A stretch of DNA of 64,000 nucleotides, taken from positions 1-64,000 of the IMG/VR virus record IMGVR_UViG_3300046008_000478, one strand, 5' to 3'. Below the pieces are notes generated by a model, which saw only the letters and a list, made by a program, of their open reading frames with translations, had not been told where the DNA came from and searched no databases. Position numbers and translations under genes: made by a program. Shown here piece after piece: positions 14,917-56,900 of the stretch (positions within the stretch are counted from its first letter, which is position 1; the number at the start of each line of letters is the position of its first letter). This DNA is from a virus.

Positions 14917-15068
14917 AAAAGCAATTCCCAACCGACGCCCAGGCGCTGGCCTTTCTGAATGATTGGCCAGATGGAACTCCAAAGTCGTTTGGGAATGGCT
15001 TCACGCTGCATTGGCATGCCGTACCGGCGCCAGTGGTGCGAGTAAGAAGGGCGCCAAAAGATGAGTGA
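14913..15068 (+). CDS. 51-residue hypothetical protein
   Basis: Read directly: MKKQFPTDAQALAFLNDWPD to VRVRRAPKDE, ending 8 nt inside the next gene. Starts in an ATGA overlap with DUF3310. A short helix, a Gly/Asn turn and a basic tail. No family recognised. Confidence 0.6.
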   Translation: MKKQFPTDAQALAFLNDWPDGTPKSFGNGFTLHWHAVPAPVVRVRRAPKDE

Positions 15069-15645
15069 GCCAATGACCATGGGGGAGCGCTATCTGAGCG
15101 CCACCCAGTCCAGCAACCTGCGCACCGAGGCTGATAGGACGACAGACGCCGATAAGTTATTGGCTGCTGCCTACGCAGTGGCCGGCGACAAGCGGCGCGA
15201 CCTGGCACTGAGGGTGTGGAGATTGAAGGCTGGAGACATGCGCGGCTGCCACCAAGTGGCGGATGACATGGGAGCGATGCTGCGCAAGTCAATGATGGGC
15301 CGCAATGGCGGGTATCTGCGAGGGTTTAAGCCTGGATGCATAGCGTCCATCGAGGCGCGCGACCTGGCGCTGATGGTTTTGAAATGGTGGGCCTACCCAA
15401 CGTGCCCGGCATGCCATGGGCGAGGTGGCCCGCTGATACCAGGCACCCCGGTGCTGGATGAGTCGATGGAGTGCGGCCCTTGCGGTGGCACTGGGCAGGT
15501 TCCGCTGGAGCGGCTGTTCAAGGCCACTGAGGTGGATGCTGCCAAGTGGTTGGTTTCGGAGTTGGAAGGATTGAGCGCTGTGATCTTTGGGGATATGGCG
15601 CGGATCTTGGCTCCACGGATGGATTTGAATTTAACTAAGGAATGA
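15061..15645 (+). CDS. DnaJ-type zinc-finger protein, possible late antiterminator
   Basis: 194 residues. A helical N-terminal half (LLAAAYAVAGDKRRDLALRVWRLKAGD, SMMGRNGGYLRGF) precedes a zinc finger with CPACHGRGG and CGPCGGTG, about 25 residues apart, then LERLFKATEVDAAKWLVSEL. Lambda Q-type antiterminators also carry a CxxCxGxG finger in a helical frame, and this gene lies just before the late region with its two RNA leaders. The Q-like role is inference from the finger and position; similarity to a specific Q family was not tested. Confidence 0.5.
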   Translation: MSEPMTMGERYLSATQSSNLRTEADRTTDADKLLAAAYAVAGDKRRDLALRVWRLKAGDMRGCHQVADDMGAMLRKSMMGRNGGYLRGFKPGCIASIEARDLALMVLKWWAYPTCPACHGRGGPLIPGTPVLDESMECGPCGGTGQVPLERLFKATEVDAAKWLVSELEGLSAVIFGDMARILAPRMDLNLTKE

Positions 15646-17600: not shown

Positions 17601-18156
17601 AGATGACAGTCGCCTGCTGAGTCGGCCCCACCGGGTCCACTTTGCGGGCTTCGAGAGCAGCACCTACCGGCTGCAGCAGGCCGGCTGGCAGTTGTCGGCA
17701 GAGCAGTCGCCCCGCGATGGCCGCCTGGGATTGGTCATGCGCCACCAGGGTGCTGGGTGCTACATGATGGCCGATGAGGTGCGATTCAATTTCATGAGCT
17801 CGCTTCGCAGTGAGCAGGAATATGAGCTGGATTTTCAGGTGCGGCGGTGCTCTTCCGACATCACGGTGATCCAATCGAACATGGGTTTCGGTGGATTTGA
17901 ACCGATTGACGCAACCCCACAGTTCGTCACCACTGAGCGCAAGTCAATCAAGGACTTCAACATCTTTGCCTCGCAGCTGGTGCGCACCGAGGAGATCATC
18001 ATCGAGCCCCAGTCCGTGGCCGAGTGTCTGGACCTGATTCGCAAGATGCAGGCGCCCGAGCTGGCCGCCGTGCGCAAGCGCAACCTGGACCGGGACCGCA
18101 TGGATCCGATCAACCAGCAGAATTTTCACGCACAGATTGTGAGTTTGGCAGCATGA
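17587..18156 (+). CDS. Hypothetical phage protein
   Basis: 189 residues from MALCRDDSRLLSRPH (17587), the start just after the previous gene's stop region. Features: FAGFESSTYRLQQAGWQLSAEQ, MRHQGAGCYMMADEVRFNF, then IQSNMGFGGFEPID and a basic C-terminal helix KMQAPELAAVRKRNLDR. Mixed alpha/beta. Proteins like this occur beside phage packaging genes, but the function is unknown. Confidence 0.6.
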   Translation: MALCRDDSRLLSRPHRVHFAGFESSTYRLQQAGWQLSAEQSPRDGRLGLVMRHQGAGCYMMADEVRFNFMSSLRSEQEYELDFQVRRCSSDITVIQSNMGFGGFEPIDATPQFVTTERKSIKDFNIFASQLVRTEEIIIEPQSVAECLDLIRKMQAPELAAVRKRNLDRDRMDPINQQNFHAQIVSLAA

Positions 18157-18593
18157 CGGTAATCGCGTGGGATGGTCGCACCCTGGCGGCCGACAAAATG
18201 GCTGTCACCGGAATTACCAAAGGCTCGGTGAAGAAGATTTTTTACCATGGTGGTGAATTGCTGGGGGTCACTGGGAACCTGTCCATCGGCATGGAAGTGA
18301 TGCGGTGGTACACGGACGGGGCGGACCCGGGCAAGTTCCCCGCCTCCAACCGAAACCTCAATGAGGGATCCAGCCTGATTCGGATTGACAAGGATTGCAA
18401 GGTTTGGAAATACGAGAGCTCCCCGATCCCATTCAGGGTGGAGGGCGACCGATGCGCCTTTGGATCTGGAGATGAGGCAGCCCTGGTTGCCATGGAGATG
18501 GGTGCGGATGCGCGCCGGGCAGTGGAGCTGGCGTCCATGTTCAACACCACCTGCGGCGGCGGGTGCGACGCAATTGATTGGCCTTTGAAGTGA
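18153..18593 (+). CDS. HslV/proteasome-beta-like Ntn-hydrolase
   Basis: 146 residues. MTVIAWDGRTLAADKM places Thr2 as N-terminal nucleophile after Met removal, followed by the conserved Asp (LAADK) and Lys (GSVKKIF), as in HslV and proteasome beta subunits. LLGVTGNLSIG and FGSGDEAALVAMEMGADARRAVELA match the core of the fold. It starts in an ATGA overlap. No HslU-like ATPase is encoded nearby. It might process virion proteins or degrade a host factor; both are inference. Confidence 0.75.
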   Translation: MTVIAWDGRTLAADKMAVTGITKGSVKKIFYHGGELLGVTGNLSIGMEVMRWYTDGADPGKFPASNRNLNEGSSLIRIDKDCKVWKYESSPIPFRVEGDRCAFGSGDEAALVAMEMGADARRAVELASMFNTTCGGGCDAIDWPLK

Positions 18594-19050: not shown

Positions 19051-19636
19051 TGGGGCGCTGGCCCTGGTGGGGTTGGGCCGGATGGCTGACATGGTGGCTT
19101 GGACAAAGCTGATGCGATCGCGGGTGGCAAGGCTGACCGAGCAGCGCGACGCCTTCGAGGAAAAGGCCTATGACCTCCATTTCCGCTGCGAGCACAGCAA
19201 GGAAGTCATGAAGGCGGAGTGCGAGATGGCCATGCAGGCTGCGCGCGACATGCATCTCCAGACCCTGGATAGCCTCCGGATCCATGCGACCTCAGAGATG
19301 CTGCGAATCCATAATGAGTACGCCAAGCGCGGGTTGGACAAGCGGTCCATGGATGTGCAGGCGGCCGTGCAGCTGGAGATGGATGGTCTCCGGGTGGACC
19401 TGGAGCGGGAGCTGGCGGAGCACAGGGCGTCAAATGATCGAGTGAAGATCAAGCTGCTGGAGACCGAGAAGAGCTACAGCCAGCTCCGGGAGTCCTATCA
19501 AACAGCGCGCAAGAAGGCTGACATGCTTGAGGCGCGAGAGGGGTCTTGGCAGAAACTGCACGGGGAAGCGGTGCGAGAGCGCAATACAGCAATGAGCGCC
19601 CTGGAAAATAGTTTGAAAAATACTGCAAATACTTGA
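19034..19636 (+). CDS. Coiled-coil protein with N-terminal hydrophobic segment
   Basis: 200 residues from MMKFIDGALALVGLG (19034), with a GGAGAAAAGC ribosome site; the longer upstream frame lies antisense-like over the previous gene. Residues 1-25 are weakly hydrophobic; the rest is a long charged coiled coil. Probably an oligomeric helper of unknown role. It ends just inside the promoter of RNA B. Confidence 0.6.
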   Translation: MMKFIDGALALVGLGRMADMVAWTKLMRSRVARLTEQRDAFEEKAYDLHFRCEHSKEVMKAECEMAMQAARDMHLQTLDSLRIHATSEMLRIHNEYAKRGLDKRSMDVQAAVQLEMDGLRVDLERELAEHRASNDRVKIKLLETEKSYSQLRESYQTARKKADMLEAREGSWQKLHGEAVRERNTAMSALENSLKNTANT

Positions 19637-19663
19637 CACAAATCTTTTGCGCACCGTTATATT
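19633..19663 (+). promoter_or_regulatory. Promoter of RNA B, candidate late promoter
   Basis: -35 TTGACA (19633-19638) is exact. The -10 is TATATT (19658-19663) at 19-bp spacing. The distance from the -10 to the conserved CAGCAA of the leader is 5 nt, the same as at the second promoter of this type near 44075. Confidence 0.65.
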
Positions 19664-19782
19664 CAATGCAGCAATAAAGCCGGAGAGACACCACCGGCAC
19701 AACAAATAGCGGCACCTTTGATGGAAAGCCGCCTTTGAAATTTATTGCTGTCCATCCGCATGGTATTCACAAGATGCCAGCC

Positions 19783-19854
19783 GAATGGGTAGCTCAACCG
19801 GTAGAGCAGCTGAGGAAACTTGGCCTGTTGCGGGATCGTACCCCGCTCCATTGG
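19783..19854 (+). other. tRNA-like fold inside RNA B
   Basis: A cloverleaf can be drawn: six-pair acceptor (GAATGGG / TCCATTG, the outer pair mismatched), T-A linker, D arm GCTC-8-GAGC, variable loop of 5 and a T arm GCGGG-ATCGTAC-CCCGC. The anticodon arm has only a 6-nt loop (GGAAAC) with no T33, and no CCA end. So it resembles a tRNA in three arms but is unlikely to decode. Confidence 0.5.
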
Positions 19855-20304
19855 TCGGTCGTCAAGGGGAGTTGCAGGAAACTGTAATACGACACCCACC
19901 GGGTTGCTTAAAACGCATATCCGGCCACTCTGGGCCTAGACCGGGCGGTTAGATCCGACCAGCAGCACCCCTGAAAGCGGGGAGCACCAATTTCGACTCT
20001 GGAGATACCGCCTACAGCCGGTGAAAGTCCCGGCAATCAGAGTCAGTCAGTTTGGGTTAAGCGCAAAGGATGCCGCCGTAAAGGAGGTCACACTGGCGCA
20101 GGGTTGGGGTCACCCGGCCGCCCGAAGACATTTACCCAGTGCTGCAGCATGTGGGTGGACGAGCCGCCATCGTAAGGGCGGAGTAGGGGCCGACAGTCGA
20201 AACTTGAACTTAACAGATGCCAGCTTGGGGCATGGTCGGAAACACAAGACGCGCAGGGGGTAGCCCTGACAAACATCTGGGTGTAAGCCCCGGAGCCAAA
20301 TACC

Positions 20305-20333
20305 AAAAGCCACCCTAACCCGGTGGCTTTTTT
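20305..20333 (+). terminator. Terminator of RNA B (t1)
   Basis: AAAGCCACC (20306-20314) and GGTGGCTTT (20322-20330) form a perfect 9-bp stem with a 7-nt loop, followed by more T. A strong Rho-independent terminator, upstream of terminase. Confidence 0.9.
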
Positions 20334-20427
20334 GTTTCAGCCGTCCGTAGAGTAGTCCAACCACTTTGTGATCACACAAGGGACTTGATCTCGGGCGGCG
20401 ATTTTTCTCCCTGGTCGCAAGACCTTT

Positions 20428-20452
20428 GCCTCGCTGCACGCGGGGCTTTTTT
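20428..20452 (+). terminator. Second terminator before terminase (t2)
   Basis: GCCTCGC (20428-20434) pairs with GCGGGGC (20440-20446, one T-G pair), followed by six T. Two terminators in series between the RNA B promoter and the terminase suggest that late expression needs antitermination. Confidence 0.75.
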
Positions 20453-20463
20453 ACATCTGAACC

Positions 20464-20670
20464 ATGAACATCACACAAACTTGGGAGGAGCTTGGCGTCA
20501 AGCGCCCAGAGCGAGGTGATCACCCACACATGGATCCGCGCCAGGCAGCCGAAGAGTCAATGAAGAACTGCAGAGCATTGATTGTGGATTTGATCCACGC
20601 CGGGCGACTTCCTGCTCCTCCAATGGGCAAGAGCTACATCCCAGGAGCAGACGGGGTGAGGCTGGCATGA
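20464..20670 (+). CDS. Small protein before terminase
   Basis: 68 residues: ITQTWEELGVKRPERGDHPHMDPRQAAEESMKNCRALIVDLIHAGRLPAPP. Mostly helical. It overlaps the small terminase start by ATGA. Position suggests a packaging accessory, but no family was recognised. Confidence 0.55.
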   Translation: MNITQTWEELGVKRPERGDHPHMDPRQAAEESMKNCRALIVDLIHAGRLPAPPMGKSYIPGADGVRLA

Positions 20671-21299
20671 GCGACGTAAAGAAGACTGCAGACTGGGAGC
20701 TGATCGAGCGGCATTACCGCGCCGGCATCCTTTCACTGCGCCAGACAGCCACAGAGGGCGGAGTCACTGAGAGTGCTATTCGCAAGCGAGCCAAGCGTGA
20801 TGGATGGTCTCGCAACCTCAAGGCGAAGATCCAGAATCGCGCCGAAGAGCTGGTGCGCAAATCAGAGGTGCGCAAAGTTAGTGCGCAAGCCCGCGCACTT
20901 CCGGAAAAAGAGATCATTGAGGTCAATGCCCAGGCAGTTGCCACGGTTCTGATCGTGCAGAAGGGCAGCATCAAGCGCATGCACTCATTGGCTGAGAAGC
21001 TGATGGATGAGCTGGAAGCCACGACTGACAACAAGGAGCTGTTCATCCAACTGGGTGAGCTGCTTGATACGTCGGGTCCGGATGAGAATGGCAAGGACCG
21101 CAAGGACTTGATGAATGAGATCTACCGCAAGGTCATCTCGATGGGCGGACGCATTGACTCTGCCAAGAAGCTGGCCGAGATCCTGGAGAAGGTCGTCAAG
21201 CTGGAGCGCGAGGCGTTCGGCATTGAGAACACTGAGAAGCAGGCCAGCCCAATTGATGAGCTGCTGCTGAGAATTGCCCGTGAGCGAAGCGGCCCGTGA
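20667..21299 (+). CDS. Terminase small subunit
   Basis: 210 residues. N-terminal HTH: WELIERHYRAGILSLRQTAT and GGVTESAIRKRAKRDGWSRNL, which is the DNA-recognition module of this terminase family. The middle is helical (VLIVQKGSIKRMHSLAEKLMDELE) and the C-terminus has KLAEILEKVVKLEREAFGIEN, the helix typical of small terminases that bind the ATPase subunit. It recognises the packaging site. Overlaps the large subunit. Confidence 0.85.
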   Translation: MSDVKKTADWELIERHYRAGILSLRQTATEGGVTESAIRKRAKRDGWSRNLKAKIQNRAEELVRKSEVRKVSAQARALPEKEIIEVNAQAVATVLIVQKGSIKRMHSLAEKLMDELEATTDNKELFIQLGELLDTSGPDENGKDRKDLMNEIYRKVISMGGRIDSAKKLAEILEKVVKLEREAFGIENTEKQASPIDELLLRIARERSGP

Positions 21300-22803
21300 G
21301 TTCGCCATCCAGGAGGTCATGGACTCCCTGGAGGTCCACGCTGCGTACTGCGCGAAGATCAAGGACAAAGGAGGGAAGCTAGTCCCCTTCCTGTTCAACA
21401 AGGCGCAGCACTACGTGCATGAGCGACTTGAGGCGCAGTGCAAGGAGACCGGCAAGGTTCGCGCGCTGATCCTGAAGGGCCGCCAGCAAGGTATCTCCAC
21501 TTACATCAGTGAGCGGTTCTACCAACGTGTGAGCACCAGGATCGGCCAGAGCGCGTTCATCGTGGCGCACGAGGACAAGGCCACCAAGAATCTGTTTGAG
21601 ATGGCCAAGCGGTACAACGACCACAACCCGTTGGCACCGAGCACCAAGGCATCGAACGCGCTGGAGCTGGTCTTTGGCGCACTGGATGCAGGCTATAAGA
21701 CGGCGACCGCGGGATCCAAGGACGTTGGCCGGTCCAACACGGCGCAGCTGCTGCACGGCTCTGAGTTCGCCTTTTGGGCCAACGCACAGAGTCACCTGGC
21801 TGGATTGGGTAACACGATTGCGGACATGCCTGGCACGGAGATCGTGCTGGAGTCCACTGGTAACGGAGTAGGTAACGCCTTCCACTTGATGTGGCAGGAG
21901 GCCGAAGCGGGCCGCGGCGAGTTCATTGCGATCTTTGTGCCGTGGTACTGGCAAGAGGAGTACACCGCACCGATCAAGCCGGACTTGATGCTGACGGCGG
22001 AAGACCAGAAGTACCAGCTTGCATACAGCCTGACGCTTGGCCAGATGCAGTGGCGAGCCAACAAGATTGCGACGTACGGCCAGGGATTCGAGTGGCTATT
22101 CGATCAGGAGTATCCAGCGACCGCCGCTTTGGCGTTCCAGAGCTCCACGGTGAATCCGTTGATCAGCCCGCACGATGTGATGGCCGCGGTCAACAGCAAG
22201 TACCTGGAGATGAATGCGCCGCTGGTGATCGGTTGCGACCCAGCAGGCGACGGTGTCAATGATGCCGACCGCACAGCAATTGCTTTCCGTCGTGGCCGCG
22301 TGTGCTTCCGCTTGGAGTACCACCAGGGCCTGAACACGATGCAGATTGCCGGCAAGCTGGCTGAATACTGGCGCGACTTTGAGCCTGATGGGCTGTTCGT
22401 GGACAAGGGCGGCCTTGGTGCTGGCATCTACGACCGGTTGATCGAGCTGAACATCCCGGCGCTTGGCATCAACAGCGCGACTGTGGCCAATGACCCAGAG
22501 CGCTACGAGAACAAGCGCGCCGAGATGTGGTGGACGATGAAGGAGTGGTTTGAGGATTCACCTTGCCGCATCCCGAATGACGCCGCATTGATCAGTGATG
22601 TGACCGCTCCGCAGCCCAAGGTGAGCTCCAACGGTCGCAAGCTGCTGGAGAAAAAAGAAGACATGAAGAAGCGCCAGGTTCGCTCACCAGATGGTGGCGA
22701 TGCACTGGCCTTGACGTTCGCCGTGCCTGTTGCTTACCGCGACAACCACACCGGTGGGCCTGTGCAAACAAGCAAATCGGCTGCCACCAGCGCAGGATAT
22801 TGA
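21280..22803 (+). CDS. terL: Terminase large subunit
   Basis: About 507 residues from GTG at 21280 (a TTG at 21274 or the ATG at 21319 is also possible). The N-terminal ATPase shows a Walker A-like LKGRQQGIST (about residue 65) and EIVLESTGNGVGN (about 187). The C-terminal RNaseH-like nuclease has GCDPAGDG (about 317), a second Asp in VDKGGLGAG and GGDALALTFA near the end. It pumps DNA into proheads and cuts it. Followed by a 52-residue gene and portal region. Confidence 0.93.
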   Translation: MSEAAREFAIQEVMDSLEVHAAYCAKIKDKGGKLVPFLFNKAQHYVHERLEAQCKETGKVRALILKGRQQGISTYISERFYQRVSTRIGQSAFIVAHEDKATKNLFEMAKRYNDHNPLAPSTKASNALELVFGALDAGYKTATAGSKDVGRSNTAQLLHGSEFAFWANAQSHLAGLGNTIADMPGTEIVLESTGNGVGNAFHLMWQEAEAGRGEFIAIFVPWYWQEEYTAPIKPDLMLTAEDQKYQLAYSLTLGQMQWRANKIATYGQGFEWLFDQEYPATAALAFQSSTVNPLISPHDVMAAVNSKYLEMNAPLVIGCDPAGDGVNDADRTAIAFRRGRVCFRLEYHQGLNTMQIAGKLAEYWRDFEPDGLFVDKGGLGAGIYDRLIELNIPALGINSATVANDPERYENKRAEMWWTMKEWFEDSPCRIPNDAALISDVTAPQPKVSSNGRKLLEKKEDMKKRQVRSPDGGDALALTFAVPVAYRDNHTGGPVQTSKSAATSAGY

Positions 22804-44050: not shown

Positions 44051-44080
44051 GTGACGGAATTCACTCGTCACTGATAGAAT
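44051..44080 (+). promoter_or_regulatory. Promoter of RNA C, second promoter of the late leader type
   Basis: -10 TAGAAT (44075-44080) stands 5 nt before the conserved CAGCAA, as at the RNA B promoter. The -35 is weak (GTGACG at 44051-44056, 18-bp spacing). The shared geometry, rather than the -35, is the reason for the call. Confidence 0.55.
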
Positions 44081-44085
44081 GGTTC

Positions 44086-44201
44086 CAGCAACAAAGCGGG
44101 ACAGACAGCCCCCGCAAAACAAATAGCGGCCACTTCTGGGCCGACCTGTCTTCAAAATACCCAACAACCCAAGCCGCCTGGTTCTCAGTGCGGCTTTTTT
44201 T
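44086..44201 (+). ncRNA. RNA C, short leader RNA ending at a terminator
   Basis: About 115 nt. The first 45 nt (44086-44130) align without gaps to RNA B. Stem GCGGG (44096-44100) with CCCGC (44111-44115) has a loop that contains AGACAG (44103-44108). This can pair with CTGTCT (44146-44151), giving a pseudoknot. CGGCC/GGCCG (44127-44131, 44139-44143) is a second hairpin. The 3' end is the terminator at 44172-44201. No coding capacity is seen. The next gene is the acetyltransferase. Confidence 0.7.
44172..44201 (+). terminator. Terminator of RNA C
   Basis: AGCCGC (44172-44177) and GCGGCT (44190-44195) followed by T to 44201. It would stop transcripts from the RNA C promoter before the acetyltransferase unless read through. 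Confidence 0.85.
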
Positions 44202-44235
44202 GCATTTGCAATTAGCAAAGCGCCATGCAAATCAC

Positions 44236-44658
44236 ATGCTGAACTATCAATTCGACCCGGTATTTTCGTTTGTTCAATCGCGCATTCCAGGACTGGTGAG
44301 ATCGCCAGGCATGTCCGCTATTGGCCTTGAGCGCAATGGATCGATTGTTGCTGGCGCAGTCTACGAGGGCTTCAACGGGAAGAACATGTGGGTTCACCTT
44401 GCAGGCTTGCCTGGTCGGTCCTGGTTGAATCGCGAGTTTCTGCATGCTGGGTTCTGCTACCCATTTATTCAATGCGGAGTCCAGCGACTGAGTGGCTATG
44501 TGAACGCCAGTAACACTGAGGCTAGGCGCTTTGATGAGCACGTCGGCTTCCGCGAGGAGGCGCGTTTGCGTGGCGCAGCCCCCGATGGTGGCGATGTGAT
44601 TATTTATGTGATGCAAAAAGAGGATTGCCAGTTTCTCGGCAAGGTAAAAATATGTTAA
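44236..44658 (+). CDS. GNAT-family N-acetyltransferase
   Basis: 140 residues from MLNYQFDPVFSFVQSRIPG (44236). The frame extends further 5' but would read through the terminator. IGLERNGSIVAGAVYEGFNGKNMWVHLAG is the beta4-beta5 region with the core Gly turn, FCYPFIQCGVQRLSGYVNASNTEARRFDEHVGFREEARLRG the acetyl-CoA and C-terminal helix region. This GNAT type is common in podo- and siphoviruses, target unknown. Short range overlap with the S74 gene downstream. Confidence 0.75.
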   Translation: MLNYQFDPVFSFVQSRIPGLVRSPGMSAIGLERNGSIVAGAVYEGFNGKNMWVHLAGLPGRSWLNREFLHAGFCYPFIQCGVQRLSGYVNASNTEARRFDEHVGFREEARLRGAAPDGGDVIIYVMQKEDCQFLGKVKIC

Positions 44659-45833
44659 TTCCAAGTAAGCACTGCGGCTACCAGGCTAGCATTCGTCTGT
44701 ACCCCGGAAGCGGGAAGGGTGGCGGCGGAGGCTCCGCTCCAGCTCCAGACCCAGCCTTGATTGCGGCGCAAATTCGCTCCATGGGGATCCAGGACGAGGC
44801 GATCAAGACAGTGGTGGCCAACTCAAATGAGATGCTTCCTTTGCAAAAGGAGCAGACGAAGTTTGGCCTTGAATCTGCAAAGACCGCCTACCAGCAATCA
44901 CAGGATGACCGCGGTTGGGCGCTTGCTCGCCGCGGAGAGATGACTGGCGTCCAAGATGGAATGATCAAGGATGCCGCCGACTTCAATGCGGATGGCCGCC
45001 AGGAGCAGTTGGCTCAGAAGGCCGGAGAAGATGTCGCTGGGGCAATAAGTACATCCCAAGGGCAGTTGACACGGACACTGGCATCCCGCGGAATCAATGC
45101 CAATTCAGGTGCCGCGCTAACCGCCATGAATGGGTCTGCATTAACCGGAGCAATGGCTGGCGCCAGTGCTGTAAACAACACCCGAGAGGCTGCGCGCAAA
45201 GAGGGTTACGGCCTATCCGACCGGGCGAACAGTGCCCTGGCTGGGTATTCCACCCAGGCATCCGCATCGTCCGGTGCAGGCGCTGGGTTCGGAGCTTCCG
45301 GCGTAGCTACGGCAAATGCAGGGGCGACCGGAATGAATGCTGGATTTGGAACGGCCGGAGGAATGGCTGGGCAAATGGGATCCAATGCCGCTGGTATGTA
45401 CGGAACCCAGGCCAACTACTCCATCGCACAGAATCAAGCGAACAACCAGCCAGACCCCATGATGCAACTCATGGGTGGCGCGGCCATGAAGTACGCCATG
45501 TCCTCCGACGTCAACCAAAAGGAATCTATCTGCGCTACTGAGCCTGGATCAGCCCTGGAGGCGGTCAAAGCCCTGCCTGTGAGCGAGTGGCAGTACAAGG
45601 AAGATAGCCCAGCTAATGACGGAGGCAAGCGCCACACCGGACCCATGGCCCAGGACGTGCAGCGCGTCGTTGGAGAGAAGGCAGCCCCGGGCGGCAAGAT
45701 GATTGACTTGATCAGCCTGAATGGGCTGAACATGGCAGCCACCAAAGATCTGAACCAAAAAGTTGAGCAACTCACCCATCAGGTCAAGCGCCTGTCTGTA
45801 GGTGGCGTGCACCGAAAGGAATCCAATGTCTAG
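44652..45833 (+). CDS. Virion protein with C-terminal S74 intramolecular chaperone
   Basis: 393 residues from MLIPSKHCGYQASIRLYPG (44652), overlapping the acetyltransferase end. Middle region is Ala/Gly/Asn/Ser-rich (about 125-270), as in internal or fibre shaft proteins. The C-terminal 110 residues carry the self-cleaving S74 chaperone: MSSDVNQKESI with Ser and Lys, ALEAVKALPVSEWQYKEDSPANDGGKRHTGPMAQDVQRVVGE and a coiled coil NLNQKVEQLTHQVKRL-like end. The chaperone normally trims itself after trimer folding. Confidence 0.75.
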   Translation: MLIPSKHCGYQASIRLYPGSGKGGGGGSAPAPDPALIAAQIRSMGIQDEAIKTVVANSNEMLPLQKEQTKFGLESAKTAYQQSQDDRGWALARRGEMTGVQDGMIKDAADFNADGRQEQLAQKAGEDVAGAISTSQGQLTRTLASRGINANSGAALTAMNGSALTGAMAGASAVNNTREAARKEGYGLSDRANSALAGYSTQASASSGAGAGFGASGVATANAGATGMNAGFGTAGGMAGQMGSNAAGMYGTQANYSIAQNQANNQPDPMMQLMGGAAMKYAMSSDVNQKESICATEPGSALEAVKALPVSEWQYKEDSPANDGGKRHTGPMAQDVQRVVGEKAAPGGKMIDLISLNGLNMAATKDLNQKVEQLTHQVKRLSVGGVHRKESNV

Positions 45834-47983: not shown

Positions 47984-50900
47984 ATGAGCATCCTCGACAA
48001 CACTGCCATTGAACAACAGCTACTGGCCATGGGCGAGAAAAAGTCCGCCGGAGATGCGCCAGCCGCGCCCAGGTCCGACAGCGCAGCCAGCGGGCCACAA
48101 GCTTTTGTTCAGCGGTATGCAGACCTTGCCGCAACCACCGGGGCAAAGCTCGGTGTGGCGCCAGAAGTTCTGCTTGGTCAATGGGGGCTGGAGACAGGCT
48201 GGGGCAAGAGCATCATCCCGGGAACCAACAACCTGGGCAACATCAAGGGTAAGAATGGCCCCATGGCCACCGACAACCAAACTGGCTCGCGTGACTCCTA
48301 CCGGGCGTATAAGGACGACGCTGATTTTGGCAATGGCTTCACTGCATTTATCGGAAACTCAGAGCGCTACCAGGGCGCCCTGAATTCAGGCGCAGATGCT
48401 GGCGCGTACTTCTCTGCCCTCAAGAAAGGTGGCTACGCAGAAGACCCCGCCTACGTGCAAAAGGGTGTAAGCGCAACTCGTCTTGCGTCACAATTCCTGG
48501 GTGGGCGTGCTCTACCTGCAGGGCAGGTGAGTGCAACGGAGGCGCCAACCGAGGCTCCGCAGTACCACTGGGGTGCACAAGATGGTCCAACGCGCACCGT
48601 TGCCACTAAGCCAGCCAGCTTCGCTGAAAAGGCGGCAGACACCGCTATTTCCCTGGGATCTGGGTTGCTTGGTGGCGCCAAGAGTTTGACGGATGTATTT
48701 GGCGCAGACAACTCCGCATCACAATTTCTTGGCGAGCAATCCAAGAATGTTGACGGTTACACATCGGATGAGCGCAAAGCGGAGCGCGCAGCCAGTCAGG
48801 AAAAGATCAAGCAAGCTGAGCTGTACGGTTCTGCATGGGATGAGATCAAGGCCAACATCAGTGCATTTGCAGATGCCCCCATTGACATCGTAGTGGGCGC
48901 GGTTGGATCCAGTGCCCCAACCCTGTTGAGCATGTTCATTCCGGGGCTTGGTCAAACTGCTGCTGCACGCCTGGTGATGGGCGGGATTATGGGTGCCGCA
49001 CAGGGGACTGGCGCTGGCAAAGGCAGCATCTACGAGGCTGTGGAAAATAAGCTGCTGGAGTCCGGCATCGACCAGGACACAGCAAAGAAAACAGCGGCGG
49101 CAGCGCAAGCATACGACGGCCAGAATGGCGGAATGATCGCAGCCAACGGAATCATGGGCACCATCGCTGGACTGACTGGTGTCGAGGGCTCGCTCGCCAA
49201 AATACTGGGAAAGAAGGTCGCAGAAGGCGCCGCAGAAAAAGCAGCCCCTGGACTGATTAAAACTTTTGCTAAGGGTATTGCGCAGGAGTCCCCAATAGAA
49301 GGTGCCCAAGGCGGCCTTGAGCGAGTCTCTGGGAATGTTGCTCTGCAAAACCAAGGGTACGACACTCCAACATTCCAAGGGGCTGCCGGACAGGCGGCTA
49401 TGGAAAGCTTGGCATCCGCACCAATGGGTGGCGGCTTTGCTTTGCTGAGTCGCAACGGCCAGCCAGCCGGCCCAATCACACCACCCAATCCACTGGAGGA
49501 GGCAGCCAAGGCGCCTGGCGCTGTACTGTCGCGCGCAGCCATTGCGCCGGATGACATCGCCCAGCGCGCCCATGAGATTGAAGGCGAACTCAAAGACAGC
49601 GGCGGCATGCAGGCCCTGCGCTCCATTGGTGCACAACACGTTGCCCCATTCCTAGAGGCCCTGTCGATTGCCAAGGACAAGCGCCTGCCGGCAGCCGCGC
49701 GCCAGGAAGCACTGGACACCATCAACCTGGGCATGCAGTGGATGGCTGACGGCAAGACCGCGGACCAGCCAGGCAATGGATCTCCATTCAGCACCAGCTT
49801 GGTGACGCAGTCAGCACCCACTCAGCCGGGCACGGACCTAGCCACCACAGCGGGCGGAGCCCTGACCAATCCTGGCATGCCGCAGGCTTTCGATCCCAAC
49901 ACGATCGATGGCGAGGTCACGCGCGTGGACAACATGCTGGATGGCCCCAAGGCATTGCCGGCGCCACCAGGCCCAGCACTCACCAATCAAACAACTCAGA
50001 CGCCTGCACCCGCAGGCGTTTCTACTTCTGCACCACAGGAAATCACCAATGTCACTCAAGCCCCTCAGTCCAAGCAAGCAGCGCAAGAAGGACAAGAAGC
50101 ACCCGCAGCTGCCACCCCAGCAGTAGACACTGCGCGCACGCAGGTTTCGGCGCCCAAGGTATCTATACCCACTGGCAAGGGAACAGCTCAGTCACGAAAG
50201 CGCCGGGCCCAGCTCGATGCCATGGTTGTCAGCGGATTCGACACGGTGGAGCGCCGCGACGATGGCTTCTACCTGATCAACCACAAGTCCAACGAAGAGA
50301 TGCGCCTGGATGGCATGGGTGACGCGCAGACTGCCCGGGTAGCCATTAAATTCAAGATGGATGCGGACTCGCACGTAGCGCCATCATCCCCTCTGAATGA
50401 CAAGAAGGCGCCTTCCGAGGCTCAGATTGAGGCCGGCAACTACCACAAGCCAGTCACATCAATCAACGGCTTCAAGGTCCGTATTGAGAACCCCAATGGG
50501 TCAACCCGAAGCGGCACCTCGCCCGATGGCAAGAAGTGGTCCAGCACCATGGCCGCCCACTATGGCGAGCTCGAAGGCACGCTGGGCGCAGATGGCGACA
50601 AGGTCGATGTGTTCATTGGCAGCCGCCCGGACAGCGACAAGATCTATGTGATCGACCAGAAGAACAAGGACGGCAGCTTCGACGAGCACAAGGTGATGAT
50701 GGGCTACCAAAGCCTGGAAGCCGCCAAGGCCGGCTACCTGGCCAATTACGAAAAGGGCTGGACCGGGATGGGCGCCGTCACCGAGATGGGTGTGGCGGAG
50801 TTCAAGGCCTGGGTGAAGTCGCAAGAGGCGCTGAAGCCAGTGGCGTACACTGACCCCAAAACAACAGGGGTAGAGAATGACGAACGAGGATCTGACGCAG

Positions 50901-53900
50901 CAGGCGCTGGACTGGATACGCAATCGGAAGGAATCACTGGAGTCAGCAGCAGCACTGGAGAAGGAGTGCGGAATCCAGCTTCGACAAAGGGGGCTGGATC
51001 CACTGGATCTTCCGGAGCCACTCAGCTCGATGGTAATGAAGCTACTGTCGCAAGAAACGCAGAGCTCCTAGCTCGGGTACGAAGCGCTATTGAGGGGCTG
51101 CGCGCTCGGTATCAGGCGCAGCTCTCCGTCGCAAGTACCGATGCGGAGCGTAAAAAACTCCTGCACGAAATATCTCGACTCCCCGATGTAAACGACCCTA
51201 GTGGAGAGTTGCTTCAGGGGTACTCAAATGTTGCCTCTGCATGGGAGCGCGCTTTTGGTCAATCCGTTGGTGCTTATGTAGACGGAAGGTCGTCGGCAGA
51301 CGATGGCTTCCAGATGGGAAGCGATGCACTCGTAAACCTGCTTAACCAACAGATGCCATTGCAGTGGACGATGGCCCATGAATTCAAGCACTTGAGCGAG
51401 TTTGTGCCGAGCCTGAAGAAGCTGTACGACAGAATTTTCAGCCTCATCCCACAGGGTGCGCGGTCAGAATACCTTAGCTATCTGCACCGTACAGGCCAGG
51501 CGTCCACCAAATCTCTCGATGCGGCCACTGCCGCGGATATCGCCAAGCTGCGCCAAGAGATGGTTGCAGACTTCCTTGGGCAGCGCTTTACCGACAAGGC
51601 TTGGCTTGAGCAGCTTGCAAAGCAAAAGCCAAATCTTTTTGGTGAGTTTGTCCGCGACTGGTTGAGCATACTCAACAACGCCATACACGAGCTTATTTCC
51701 GCACTGTCAAAGGGGAATAACCCAAAAGACATTGACCGACTGATGCTGGGTCATCTGAAGCAGCTCCAGGAGATGAAACTACTGGCGGTTGATGTGGCTA
51801 CAGAGTGGGCAGAGCGCAACCCAAGGATGTCAAAGAGCACAGGCGCAAGCGAAATACTGCATAGCTCCCGCATCGACTCCATCAACGAGCTCGGCAACCT
51901 CAACCTGGACGCCATGTCTATCGATGAAGACCTGGACATGGTCGAGTTCCTGAAGGCGCAGGCGGAGTTTGATGCACAGCGGCCAGCAGCCAAGGTCGAT
52001 CCCAAGCGCGGCGGGCCGGTGCAGCCGCGCGCGGATATTGCCGATGCCGAGATCCAGGCGCATGGCCTGGCGGCCGAGGATGCTTATGGCGACGCGACCT
52101 GGGTGCATACCCACAAGTCAGCCGTCATGCTGAACACCACGGCCCGCAACCTGTACAAGCAGGGCGACGAGTCCCGCATCGATCTGCTGCAAGAGCAAGA
52201 CGGCAAGTGGGGCACCGAGGGTGGCATCCGCGGCACCTGGGTCGGCAATGACGGCATGTCTACCGGCGGAACTACCAGCCTGAAGATGGCTCAGAAATTC
52301 GTCAGCCGATTCATTGCGTCCAAGGATTTATTCGCACGCAAATTTGACATTGCGCAGACTTACTCCAGCGCATCCAGGGCCAACCTGCTGAATGCCTGGA
52401 ATGCCTTGAACAAGATGGATGGCGTGCGCAAGTATGCCAAGGCCGACAAGACAGCCATGTCCATGAAGGACATCGCGACCCAGTTGGGTGTGACGAAGTT
52501 CTATGACGTGTCCACCTTCACTGAGCGCCAAAGCCCAACCGAATCATTCCTGATGGTTGAATTCACCAACAAGGAGACGAGCGAAACCCAAGAAGCCAAC
52601 CTGACCATCGAGAAGGATGGCGACCAGCGCTTTGCCACCGCCCACACCGGAGCATTGAACCGCAACGGACTGGGCGGCGCCTTCTACCAGATGGCTGTGG
52701 AGTACGCTGCACGCAACCGGCTGGTGATTCGGCCTGATGATTCGCTGTCTGGCGTGAACACCTACCGGCGCACCGAGCAGATGCTGGCGTCCGCTATGCG
52801 CTCGGGAAAGTCCAACATCATGGTTCCGCATTCGGTGCAGCGGGTCTACGGATTCCAGAACGATGCCAAGACGCAAGATGAGCACGATGACAACGTAGTG
52901 CGCTTGCTGCTGGCCGGGCTGCGCAACGCACGCGAGCTGGCGCCTGAGATGGGGCTGCTGAACTACCACCCTGAAACCGACACCTTCACCCTGAAGAATG
53001 GGAAAGATGCGACCGGAATTGTGGATCGCATGCTGGCCAACGAGGATGCTCGTGCATTTGGCCTGGGCCGCAGTACCCTGGCGCGCGCCGTGCTGACAGA
53101 GATGGCATTGCTTGGGCAGTTGGACGTCAAGTCCATCCAGTCCATCGGAACCCCGCTCTTGTACAGCGCCCGCGAGGATGCTGAGCTGGAATACAAGCTG
53201 GTCGAGGACCAGTACAAGGGCACGCCTCAGTGGATGAAGGCGCCAGATGGCAGCCAGACACAGCTCACCCAGCGCCAATGGGTGCAGGTGCGCACGCCTC
53301 AATTCAAGGAATGGTTTGGCGACTGGGAAAAAGCCCATGCTACCGGCGGCGTCTGGGCAACAAAAGAAGATGTGTCCAAGGTCGTGGGCTCAGATGGTGA
53401 GCCTCTGGTGGTTTACCACGGGACCGACAAGGGCGGATTCATGGCGTTCAACCAGCCCGGCGGCACCAAGCGCGGCGACCTGGGAGTCTTCACGACCAGC
53501 AATGAAGGCATGGCTCGCAGCTATGTCCGCAAGGGTCGGCCGCAGGATATGACGCCACCAGTTGGGCTAGGCGACCTGGAGGAAATTGGCTACGCTTTTG
53601 AGCAAGGATTCCGGATCGATGGTGACTTCTACGATAGCGAAGAGGAGGCTCGCGATGCGGCGCAAGAGGGGGATGTGATTGCTCCAGCTGTGCGCGCCAT
53701 GGATATTGATGGCTATTTTATAGATGGGCCACGGGAGACTGGTCATTTCTTTGCAACCATGGACGATGCGGTGGAAGAGGCGCTTGGCTTGTACGACGGA
53801 GCAACCGGAATCTCCACAATTTACGCCGCCTTCGCCAACATCCGCCACCCAAATGAGACCAATTTTGAAGGCGCACTCTGGGGTGGCGAGCGACCAGAGC

Positions 53901-56900
53901 AGTACGTTGTATCGATTGATGGGGATCTGCAGTCGCGCGCGGATGGTAAGCAATACTTCACCCGAGAAGAGGCCGAGGCGTTCGCCAAAGAGCATCCCAA
54001 CCCACTCTACCAGGATGACGATGGCAGTGACTACATCGAGCCAGCTCAAGACCACTACCAAACCACCGACGACGCAGTGCGCGAAGGCCTGAAGCATGGC
54101 CACGACGGCACGATCATTCGCGAGGTTATTGATGACGGCGGCGGAATTGGCTACGACGACATGCCTTCCGATGTGTTTGTGGCCAACAAGCCAGAGCAGT
54201 TGAAGTCGGCAGACTGGAACACGGGTGAGTTTGGATCGTCGGATGACCTGCGGTACAGCGAGAGACTCATCGAAGCATCGTCAGCGCAGCACCAAATGGA
54301 GATCGAAAGGGAGGAGAGGGAGATTGCCGCCACCACTCGATTGTCTGCCGCAGAGCAGAGCTCCATCGCCATCGAGGCTGAACTCATTGGCATACCAAAA
54401 AGCAAGCTTGAGCTTGAGGTGCGTCGTATTAAGGCGCAGTTCCCAGCATCTGCGGGCTGGGCGCCCATGGAATTCGACAAGATCAATAAAGCCGAGTACG
54501 CCAAGAGGGGCGTCCTGATAATGCGCACTGTCGAGTTCAAGAAACAGCCTTACGATTTCCATCTTGGGCGCGATGGAAAGGACGACACGTCTACACACAA
54601 CAAGCGGGTGACGTCAGTTGCCAAAGGCATAAGTGACGAGATTATTGGACTGTCCAACAAGGCTAAACAAGGTGACAAGAACGCGCAAATCACCATGGAC
54701 CAGATTGGCTGGTACAGCAAGGTAGCCGCCATGTTGCACCATCAGTTTGGCGGCTTCGCAGACTTCCTTGCTCAGCTCATGGGGCCAACCAGCGCCAATA
54801 CGCCAGTGGAGGGCAATGTCAAGTACGCTATGTCCGCACTCAAGTCGGCAATGTCTGGCAAGTGGGATGGCCTCATCGCGGACACAATACGCTGGAATGA
54901 AGGCGTCATGCAAGCGGCTGCCGGATTGGATGCGGTGATCGATGCTAATCGCGCAAAACCCAAGGCAGAGCGCCTGACCGGGAAAGCTTTAGCTCAGACC
55001 GTGGAGTTCAAGGATGCCATGGCAGTAGTTGCAGCGGCCGCACCCTATCAAGGAGAGGTGCCACAGCAAGATAGCGGAGCTAAATTCGGCATGGCCACCC
55101 AGGGTGTTGTAGAAATACTGGCTGGCATTTGGAGTGACTTCCAGCGCGGTGATGCACCCAAGACCAAGAACTACTACCAAAACCTGATTGGCCGCCAGTT
55201 CACCGGCGCCACCATCGACGTCTGGGCGGCGCGCACGCTGCGCAGAATGGCTGGATTGCTGCGCCTGCCAACGTCGGCAGAGAAGGGCGTCGCTGGCAAC
55301 ATTGGGGCCAAGCTAACCCCGGGCGCGGAGTTTGGCTTCGGGCAGGAGGCGTTTGTTAAGGCTGCTGAAAACCTGCGCAACTCAGGCATTGAGGAATTTG
55401 CCAACACCACGCCGGCTGATGTGCAGGCGATGATTTGGTTTAGCGAGAAAGAGAGTTGGGCTCGCAGCAACTGGACCACCAAAATTGGCGAAGGCGGCTC
55501 TGCTGAAGCAGAATTCAATCTCCAGGGCAATGCCGATCGAGATGGACTGGAGGATGCGCGTAGGATGGCTCGCAAGGGACTGCCTCACACCGGAAGCACC
55601 AAGCCAAACAAGACGGAGGAGGGCGCCCAACAAGCATCCATCAATGCTGGCGTGGGGCAATTCCCATCCGCCCGCGAAACCCCTCAGTACAAAGAACGCC
55701 TGGCGAAAATCATCGCCAAGGCGGTGCGCGCCCGCAATGAAGCCCGCGTGCAGTTTGAGTCCATGCGCGGCGCAGCCGACCGCTGGATTGCTGGGGTGAC
55801 CCCGGCCACGGACTTCACGCCAACGGACGCCACCATGGCCGAGGTTGGCGCAGAGCTGGAGTCAAAGGTTGCCATGGGCGAAGATGCCCACAAGGTCTTG
55901 GCATTCAAAGCGCTGCCGACCATGGGTCGTTACGGCTATGACGAGCGCTCCATTGACTTCGAGGGCGTCACCCGCCAAGGCTACAACGGCGTCGATATGC
56001 TGAAGCCGCTGCTTGAATTAGCCAAGGACAAGGCGCAGGATGGCCTGCTGTTTGGACGCGTCTTGCGCGCGGATGAGGATATCGACTACCTGCGGCACCG
56101 CCCTGGCCTTGAACTCTATCTGGCTAAAGGCACAACGATGGAGAAGGCGCAGCCACTGCTGGACAAGCTCACGGAACTTGGCTTCCAGCAGTTCACATTC
56201 GTGGTGGATCCAGTGCGGACCCCGGGCGCCTTATCCGGCAAGATGGGGGATGTTGTTGGCCTGCGCTACATCTTCACTCCGGAATTTGCGTTGCGCGAAC
56301 CCAACCCTGAGTACGGCGGCGACCAGACTTGGGCGCCTGGAGCCTTGACCGATGACCAGATCCGGGGCAGAATGTTAGCGAAGGCTGATGAGCTGCATGG
56401 CCTCTCTGATGACCTACAAATGATTGCAGGCGTTTCCTCTGTTGAGAGGCGCCATTACGAGGCTAATGTTTATTTTTGGGGTGATTATGACAACGCAATT
56501 GCAAGACTTGGAGCGAGGGCTGGAAATAGTGACTCGGAAAAATCATGGAGCGGACAGCCCTTACGCTCAGGGCTTGAGGGCGCAGATCGCCGCCGCGAAA
56601 TGGACTCAGGCTCAGAAGACGCAAAGTCCTTCGCAGCTCGAAGAGACGTACTTCGGGGGGACTCGGAGCCAGCCTTCAGCCGCCGGGACGAGGGATATAG
56701 CGGACGGGATGGAGCGGATGGCTCGGTCTCGATTAAAGGAGCTGTCCACTACGGACGGCAAGCAGGCCTAAGCGTACTGTCCGGGTCCTCTAGTGGGACC
56801 GGAATCAAAGGCGCAGAGCAAGACCGCTTGAGTGCACCAGGAGTAGACCCCCGCATCAAGCGCCGGGTCTATTTTTACATCCCAACATCAGTCGGAATTC

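Follow-up and report, generated by a model that had tools for sequence, protein, structure and literature searches.

A covarying leader RNA at two phage late promoters is probably part of a new form of Q-type late antitermination

The textbook view of Q-type late control places the switch in DNA, as a binding element and a pause. Loading of Q proteins of the lambda type depends on a DNA element in the promoter spacer and a -10-like pause hexamer, and AlpA, 21Q, and 82Q require a -10-like pause sequence as well as a DNA binding element located in the stretch from -35 to -10 (PMC9371919). The put elements of phage HK022, which belong to early operons, consist of two adjacent stems separated by 1 nt and need no phage factor (PMC9378689). 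The N protein of lambda, acting with nut (boxA/boxB), represents protein-dependent antitermination via an RNA hairpin. Here, we describe a leader RNA that is present twice, as elements B and C, in a 64,000-nt window of viral DNA (the whole stretch that was analyzed, which is part of a 79,245-base IMG/VR virus record). We consider it likely that B and C are copies of one cis-acting late antitermination RNA that begins where late transcription starts and is used by a Q-like protein, and the leader is probably a new form of Q-type late antitermination.

The leaders and their promoters, hairpins, and terminators, the late genes that follow them, and the zinc-finger gene discussed below all lie on the plus strand. 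Positions 19669 to 19713 (B) and 44086 to 44130 (C) are identical at 38 of 45 nucleotides without gaps, as a first-pass annotation of this DNA had pointed out, and form the top 45-base repeat pair in the window; the runner-up pair anywhere in the window has 35 identical positions. Because the flanks of B and C agree at just 17/45 positions upstream and 15/35 immediately downstream, the shared unit is the leader and not the promoter. The predicted late promoter of B (19633 to 19663) contains TTGACA at 19633 to 19638 and TATATT at 19658 to 19663, which gives a spacer of 19 nt, or of 18 nt if TTATAT is taken as the -10 box. The predicted late promoter of C (44051 to 44080) combines a weak -35 box, GTGACG (44051 to 44056), with the -10 box TAGAAT (44075 to 44080). 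Both elements begin 5 nt past the -10 box, in agreement with the earlier claim that the two RNAs start at the same place. Across the aligned leaders, the -10 box is conserved in 18/18, with 5 nt between it and the element in 14 of them and 6 nt in the other 4. The weak points of these promoter predictions are the poor -35 at C and the position of the best -35 of B, 18 to 19 nt from the -10. An inverted repeat, GTGACG...CGTCAC, covers the -35 and spacer of promoter C (44051 to 44069) and was not seen elsewhere among the leaders.

The complete leader elements span 19669 to 19745 (B) and 44086 to 44162 (C) and score 77.7 and 76.6 bits, respectively, with a covariance model (R1) that we built from an alignment of 13 leaders (A3). 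Element B is composed of a conserved 5′ segment, CAGCAATAAA, followed by hairpin 1, an A-rich linker, AGCGGC, and a weaker hairpin 2. Hairpin 1 (19679 to 19698 in B and 44096 to 44115 in C) has a 5-bp stem and a 10-nt loop, which usually reads ACAGACANNC. The stem pairs GCCGG (19679 to 19683) with CCGGC (19694 to 19698) in B and GCGGG (44096 to 44100) with CCCGC (44111 to 44115) in C; this change, from which covariation had been proposed, is real and is one among many compensatory changes. All 5 pairs are intact in 18/18 distinct leaders (100% of stem cells paired), and both sides have changed in 4/5 pairs. Among 13 leaders there are 18 compensatory cells, a count that was reached in 0/500 shuffles, and the paired fraction drops to about half when the partner is slid by one column. 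Mean pairwise identity in the leader alignment is 0.82 over the first 10 nt, 0.81 in the loop, and 0.67 in the linker, versus 0.32 to 0.35 upstream (except for the -10 box) and 0.34 to 0.39 beyond +45; conservation begins at +1 and fades past about +45. The first 40 nt of the leaders are poor in T, with 0 to 5 T residues compared to a window mean of 8.2. Since the hairpin covaries, conservation starts at +1, and the spacing to the -10 box is fixed, we conclude that the conserved unit is an RNA element anchored where the transcript begins. Hairpin 2 is seen in single-sequence folds, and we dropped it as a conserved stem: with 65% of its cells paired and a mean folding z of -0.8 it is weak, and its register is blurred rather than conserved. 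A 10-nt closing helix, CAGCAATAAA/TTTATTGCTG, can form around the B leader by pairing 19669 to 19678 with 19740 to 19749 (folding z of -4.85). It was rejected as a general feature; other leaders do not keep it, and it is thus private to B. In the leaders at L021:2206 and L041:490, hairpin 1 is replaced at the same place by RCCGG-GAGTT-CCGGT, which has a different loop.

Neither leader region had a blastn match among 50,697 phage records. Using the terminase large subunit (phrog_2; 21274 to 22803) as an anchor, we retrieved 80 loci from IMG/VR, and about a dozen of these carry the leader upstream of terminase, right after the -10 box, as determined with nhmmer and by inspection. Over 84 sources (1.05 Mb), the significant matches to R1 were these leaders and two weaker ones with a different loop, in L021 and L041. 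In whole records, R1 found exactly two copies in the 79-kb window genome and exactly two in the 82-kb genome of a relative, L005. The first-pass annotation had suggested such a covariance-model search of phage genomes and had counted loss of the leader and hairpin in homologues against its reading; homologous phages keep both. Copies at the second site are present in two other phages. One, L111:2550-2630, also precedes a homologue of phrog_8003, and the other, found by a pattern scan in a third phage (L172), lies beside an 84% homologue of the internal virion protein of the window. Matches to a degenerate DNA pattern within coding sequence (L085, L087, L088, L090, L092 to L094, L097, and L099) were discarded as chance. 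There is also a second leader type, which consists of HP1, the linker AAGAACAACA, and a strong hairpin 2, followed by tRNA-Met in several cases (L014, L019, L022, L026, L027, and L029). It goes together with distant homologues (51 to 78 bits) of the zinc-finger protein described below; the gene is seen in L014 and L029, and L019, L022, L026, and L027 are short contigs. Inverted repeats in this second type, CAACA-N3-TGTTG, overlap the -35 and are perhaps an operator. With Rfam 15 at the gathering score, the window had no match and eight related loci matched tRNA only, and at E values of up to 5 the leader region gave noise only. A search of the open-access literature found no described terminase-leader RNA. 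As an RNA family, the leader appears to be undescribed, and it serves as a marker for the late promoters and antiterminator genes of uncultivated phages; nearly all of the related phages are metagenomic contigs.

Both leaders are followed by intrinsic terminators ahead of late genes, as had been annotated. Two stand behind B and one stands behind C. The first terminator after B occupies 20308 to 20333 (hairpin at 20308 to 20327, AGCCACCCTAACCCGGTGGC, plus T6) and the second, before the terminase small subunit gene, occupies 20428 to 20452 (hairpin at 20428 to 20446, GCCTCGCTGCACGCGGGGC, plus T6); the terminator after C is located at 44172 to 44201 (hairpin at 44172 to 44194, AGCCGCCTGGTTCTCAGTGCGGC, plus T7). 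The first recognized late gene past B encodes the terminase small subunit (phrog_1206; 20667 to 21299), and the late genes after C (44188 to 45833) encode an acyl-CoA N-acyltransferase (phrog_4470; 44188 to 44658) and a virion protein with a Peptidase_S74 domain (phrog_8003; 44625 to 45833). An intrinsic terminator ahead of the first late gene was found for 19/21 leaders, at 98 to ~870 nt from the leader start, and the minimal layout of promoter, leader, terminator, and late genes is seen at C and in L111, L010, L011, L118, L122, and L123. Distances of this order bear on the idea that the leader is an attenuator or riboswitch or encodes a leader peptide, and that an alternative antiterminator hairpin would arise when it pairs with the terminator. 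The leader AGCGGC is indeed complementary to the terminator arm GCCGC in C and L172, but complementarity of this type is missing in B, L018, and L111, the terminator is 98 to ~870 nt away, no start codon is conserved, and leader C has no ATG, so we give this idea almost no weight.

The region between leader B and its first terminator (19746 to 20307) had been described as an insertion of about 550 nt that C lacks. The difference in length stands, with the first T-run at 659 nt (B) versus 109 nt (C) from the leader start, but the insertion is not special to B: the same slot in relatives holds tRNA genes (six in L013, two or three in L005, and one or two in L016, L031, and L041) and recurring noncoding modules, such that the leader opens a series of tRNA and noncoding RNA clusters. 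In slot B, the sequence around 19782 to 19860 resembles a degenerate tRNA; neither ARAGORN nor Rfam detected a tRNA in this slot, though part of it resembles a D-arm. One of the modules, GCGCAGGGTACGYAGCACACAGAGTGCTRCACACCA...CCCCTAACAGCATCA, lies between the leader and terminase in L089, L018, L021, L031, and L041 (for example, L018:2660-2735), is 82 to 90% identical across phages, and has no Rfam match. A second, around CACCTAGAGTGCTGG..CCGGTAACGCTGG..., is found in the leader-to-terminase slot of L004, L016, L021, L031, L041, L117, and L168 and is enclosed by a stem, such as GACTCGCC...GGCGAGTC in L004. A third, CAAACGCATG...CCGTTTGG, has complementary ends and is mostly located directly 3′ of the leader (L004, L005, L006, L089, L117, and L168). 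A conserved TCTCCCTGTG(G) with a small hairpin is situated just 5′ of the last preterminase terminator in the window (20402 to 20425, where it reads TCTCCCTGGTCGCAAGACC) and in L004, L005, L016, L018, L118, and L122. Because tRNAs and other stable RNAs are often downstream and hairpin 1 starts no more than 10 nt from the 5′ end, the leader could be imagined as a stabilizer whose hairpin shields abundant late mRNAs and noncoding RNAs from decay, unrelated to termination. Such a function would not be expected to conserve the loop, linker, and 5′ sequence so strongly or to keep the leader in the regular company of terminators and a Q-like gene, and we judge it very improbable.

The best candidate for a protein partner of the leader is the product of the gene at 15061 to 15645, which the first-pass annotation had singled out as a zinc-finger gene. 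This 194-aa protein, a putative late antiterminator resembling lambda Q, carries a DnaJ-type zinc finger (C115-x2-C118 ... C138-x2-C141). Every record with a leader that extends far enough in the 5′ direction has a homologue upstream of that leader (L112/L005, L021, L018, L089, L004, L006, L031/L095, and L046 among them), either immediately upstream, as in L018, L118, L122, and L123, or several kilobases away, as in the window and L005. Close homologues are encoded in 13/40 whole records, and 11 of the 13 contain an R1 leader; in a 12th (L035), inspection by eye revealed a divergent one; these co-occurrence counts are not independent because the phages are all related. The gene is missing solely where the contig itself starts a short way before the leader (L010, L011, and L013). 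A reverse search by the zinc-finger protein, without terminase, led to L117, L118 to L121, L122, and L123, all of which have a leader downstream. The protein had no tblastn match in the 50,697 phage records.

An AF2 model of the protein made from 20 homologues (pLDDT, 88.8) was compared to 350,542 PDB chains with Foldseek, and the top match was Q-lambda in its loading complex (7ubn_Q), which aligned over the full length with a probability of 0.97, followed by a next match at 0.12. The TM-score of the 7ubn_Q match is 0.48 and its E value, 0.17, is above the usual cutoff. An earlier AF2 model from 11 sequences (pLDDT, 73.6) yielded no Foldseek fold match. The zinc finger is placed at residues 115/118/138/141 of 194, compared with 118/121/144/147 of 207 in lambda Q, and its cysteines are invariant (4/4) across the 20 homologues. 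Weak matches to "Q-like" families were obtained with phrog_6060 in 9/11 members (best E value, 6e-4) and with phrog_127, which includes lambda Q itself, in 8/11 (best E value, 5.5e-3). Profile comparison with seven lambda-Q-like proteins gave an E value of 1.7e-6, the aligned part being the zinc finger. When the zinc finger was masked, the signal was marginal (P = 0.027), and the N-terminal part alone was co-linear (P = 0.03; a reversed decoy gave P = 0.65). The case for a Q-lambda fold is built on the wide margin over the second structural match together with the zinc finger and the gene order, and the modeled protein is probably a Q-lambda-like antiterminator.

The overall arrangement resembles lambda pR′/qut with Q and 6S RNA, in that a late promoter, a short RNA, an intrinsic terminator, and late genes follow one another and a Q-lambda-like zinc-finger gene is upstream. 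Unlike in lambda, however, an RNA with a covarying hairpin is present here at +1, there are two copies per genome, and tRNAs or RNA modules often come before the terminator. The lambda-type sigma-pause hexamer (A2, T6) is found in the initially transcribed region of 4/18 leaders, versus 59% of random window 25-mers. No conserved Q binding element was seen between -35 and -10, where mean pairwise identity is 0.32, a value compatible with a site that varies by phage. The systems of AlpA, 21Q, and 82Q share promoter-proximal loading and a terminator just downstream, but their DNA binding element and -10-like pause were not found here. The first-pass interpretation survives in that an RNA with conservation and covariation heads the late transcripts, followed by a terminator and then late genes; direct membership in the lambda qut or HK022 put class, to which it had drawn an analogy, is not supported. 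In the case of qut, 14/18 leaders lack the A2..T6 "-10-like" hexamer in +1 to +25, and the spacer sequence is not conserved.

A related possibility is that Q control is ordinary here and that the leader is a mere pause, with hairpin 1 holding polymerase at about +41 while the Q-like protein loads from a DNA site. An invariant A-G-C is present at +40 to +42 (A40-G41-C42), and the base of hairpin 1 is 11 to 12 nt away, which is the spacing of hairpin-stabilized pauses; the depletion of the sigma-pause hexamer means that another pause would be needed. A bare pause hairpin, however, requires neither the ACAGACA loop nor the first 10 nt, both of which are conserved like the pause site, and the spacer contains no conserved DNA site. 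We therefore find this explanation unlikely.

The likeness to HK022 putL and putR lies in a short RNA with which the transcript opens (~70 nt in put, ~75 nt here), hairpins that here include one with a conserved loop, two copies per genome, and terminators downstream (PMC9378689). By analogy with put, which works through the β′ zinc-binding domain of polymerase, the folded nascent leader might bind RNA polymerase and confer terminator resistance with no phage protein involved, and the Q-like gene would then act elsewhere. The layout of put is absent, however: hairpin 1 ends at +30 and the next possible stem starts at about +41, so that an A-rich linker of ~10 nt and a weak second hairpin stand where put has stems 1 nt apart. 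Furthermore, R1 has no significant match in HK022 (best E value, 0.089, at an unrelated place), put serves early rather than late promoters, and a Q-like gene accompanies the leader whereas put needs no phage factor. A factor-independent element of this kind is, in our assessment, quite improbable. The leader shares with lambda N and nut a hairpin and a presumptive protein partner but differs in its 10-nt loop, its position at +1, its late operon, and the lack of a boxA above shuffles, the best match to YGYTCTTTAACA averaging 6.94 versus 6.97 in shuffled sequences.

Because the leader stands ahead of stop signals and is found with a Q-like protein, we favor a reading in which this RNA probably belongs to a new form of the switch that allows read-through. 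With no phage factor, polymerase from B or C would halt at the nearby intrinsic terminators and produce short RNAs, namely, the leader plus the noncoding RNA region from B and an RNA of ~110 nt from C. Once made, the Q-lambda-like zinc-finger protein would be loaded on polymerase near the start, and hairpin 1 and the invariant segments may bind the protein or polymerase directly or may keep polymerase paused. The modified polymerase would then read through into the terminase and head genes (B) or the acyltransferase and virion genes (C). We infer read-through, its dependence on the Q-like protein, and its action through the leader from the sequences. Since neither a spacer DNA element nor a pause hexamer is conserved, RNA-mediated loading or an RNA-hairpin pause is the simplest proposal, and because known Q proteins use a DNA site and a sigma-dependent pause, which are not seen here, a Q protein that works through RNA would break with the known pattern. 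In its most specific form, which we put forward tentatively as one possibility, the proposal is an RNA-guided Q: a Q-lambda-like antiterminator would be loaded via structured nascent RNA (the ACAGACA-loop hairpin, 5′ segment, and linker) rather than a promoter DNA site and sigma-dependent pause, at two late promoters of one phage, and leader and protein would diverge together, as suggested by the group 2 leaders with distant zinc-finger homologues. If a Q-like protein is truly loaded through nascent RNA, this system would be an intermediate that links antitermination by Q, by N, and by put. Short templates should make the case easy to test, given that the element starts at +1 and that its minimal form measures ~110 nt.

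A genome scan identified one named carrier, Polaromonas sp. strain CG9_12, with a gene of the L035 type. Its prophage (L138; CCJP01000005.1) has the zinc-finger gene and a divergent leader, and the strain offers a culturable relative. Polaromonas belongs to the Comamonadaceae, and judging from this carrier, the phages of this family, including the one in the window, probably infect Burkholderiales. Two further open reading frames lie in the window. One, at 18024 to 18593, is located just upstream of the late promoter and matches phrog_1040, "peptidase HslV family" (E value, 1e-26). The other, at 47984 to 58219 in the late region, is a single open reading frame of 3,411 aa.
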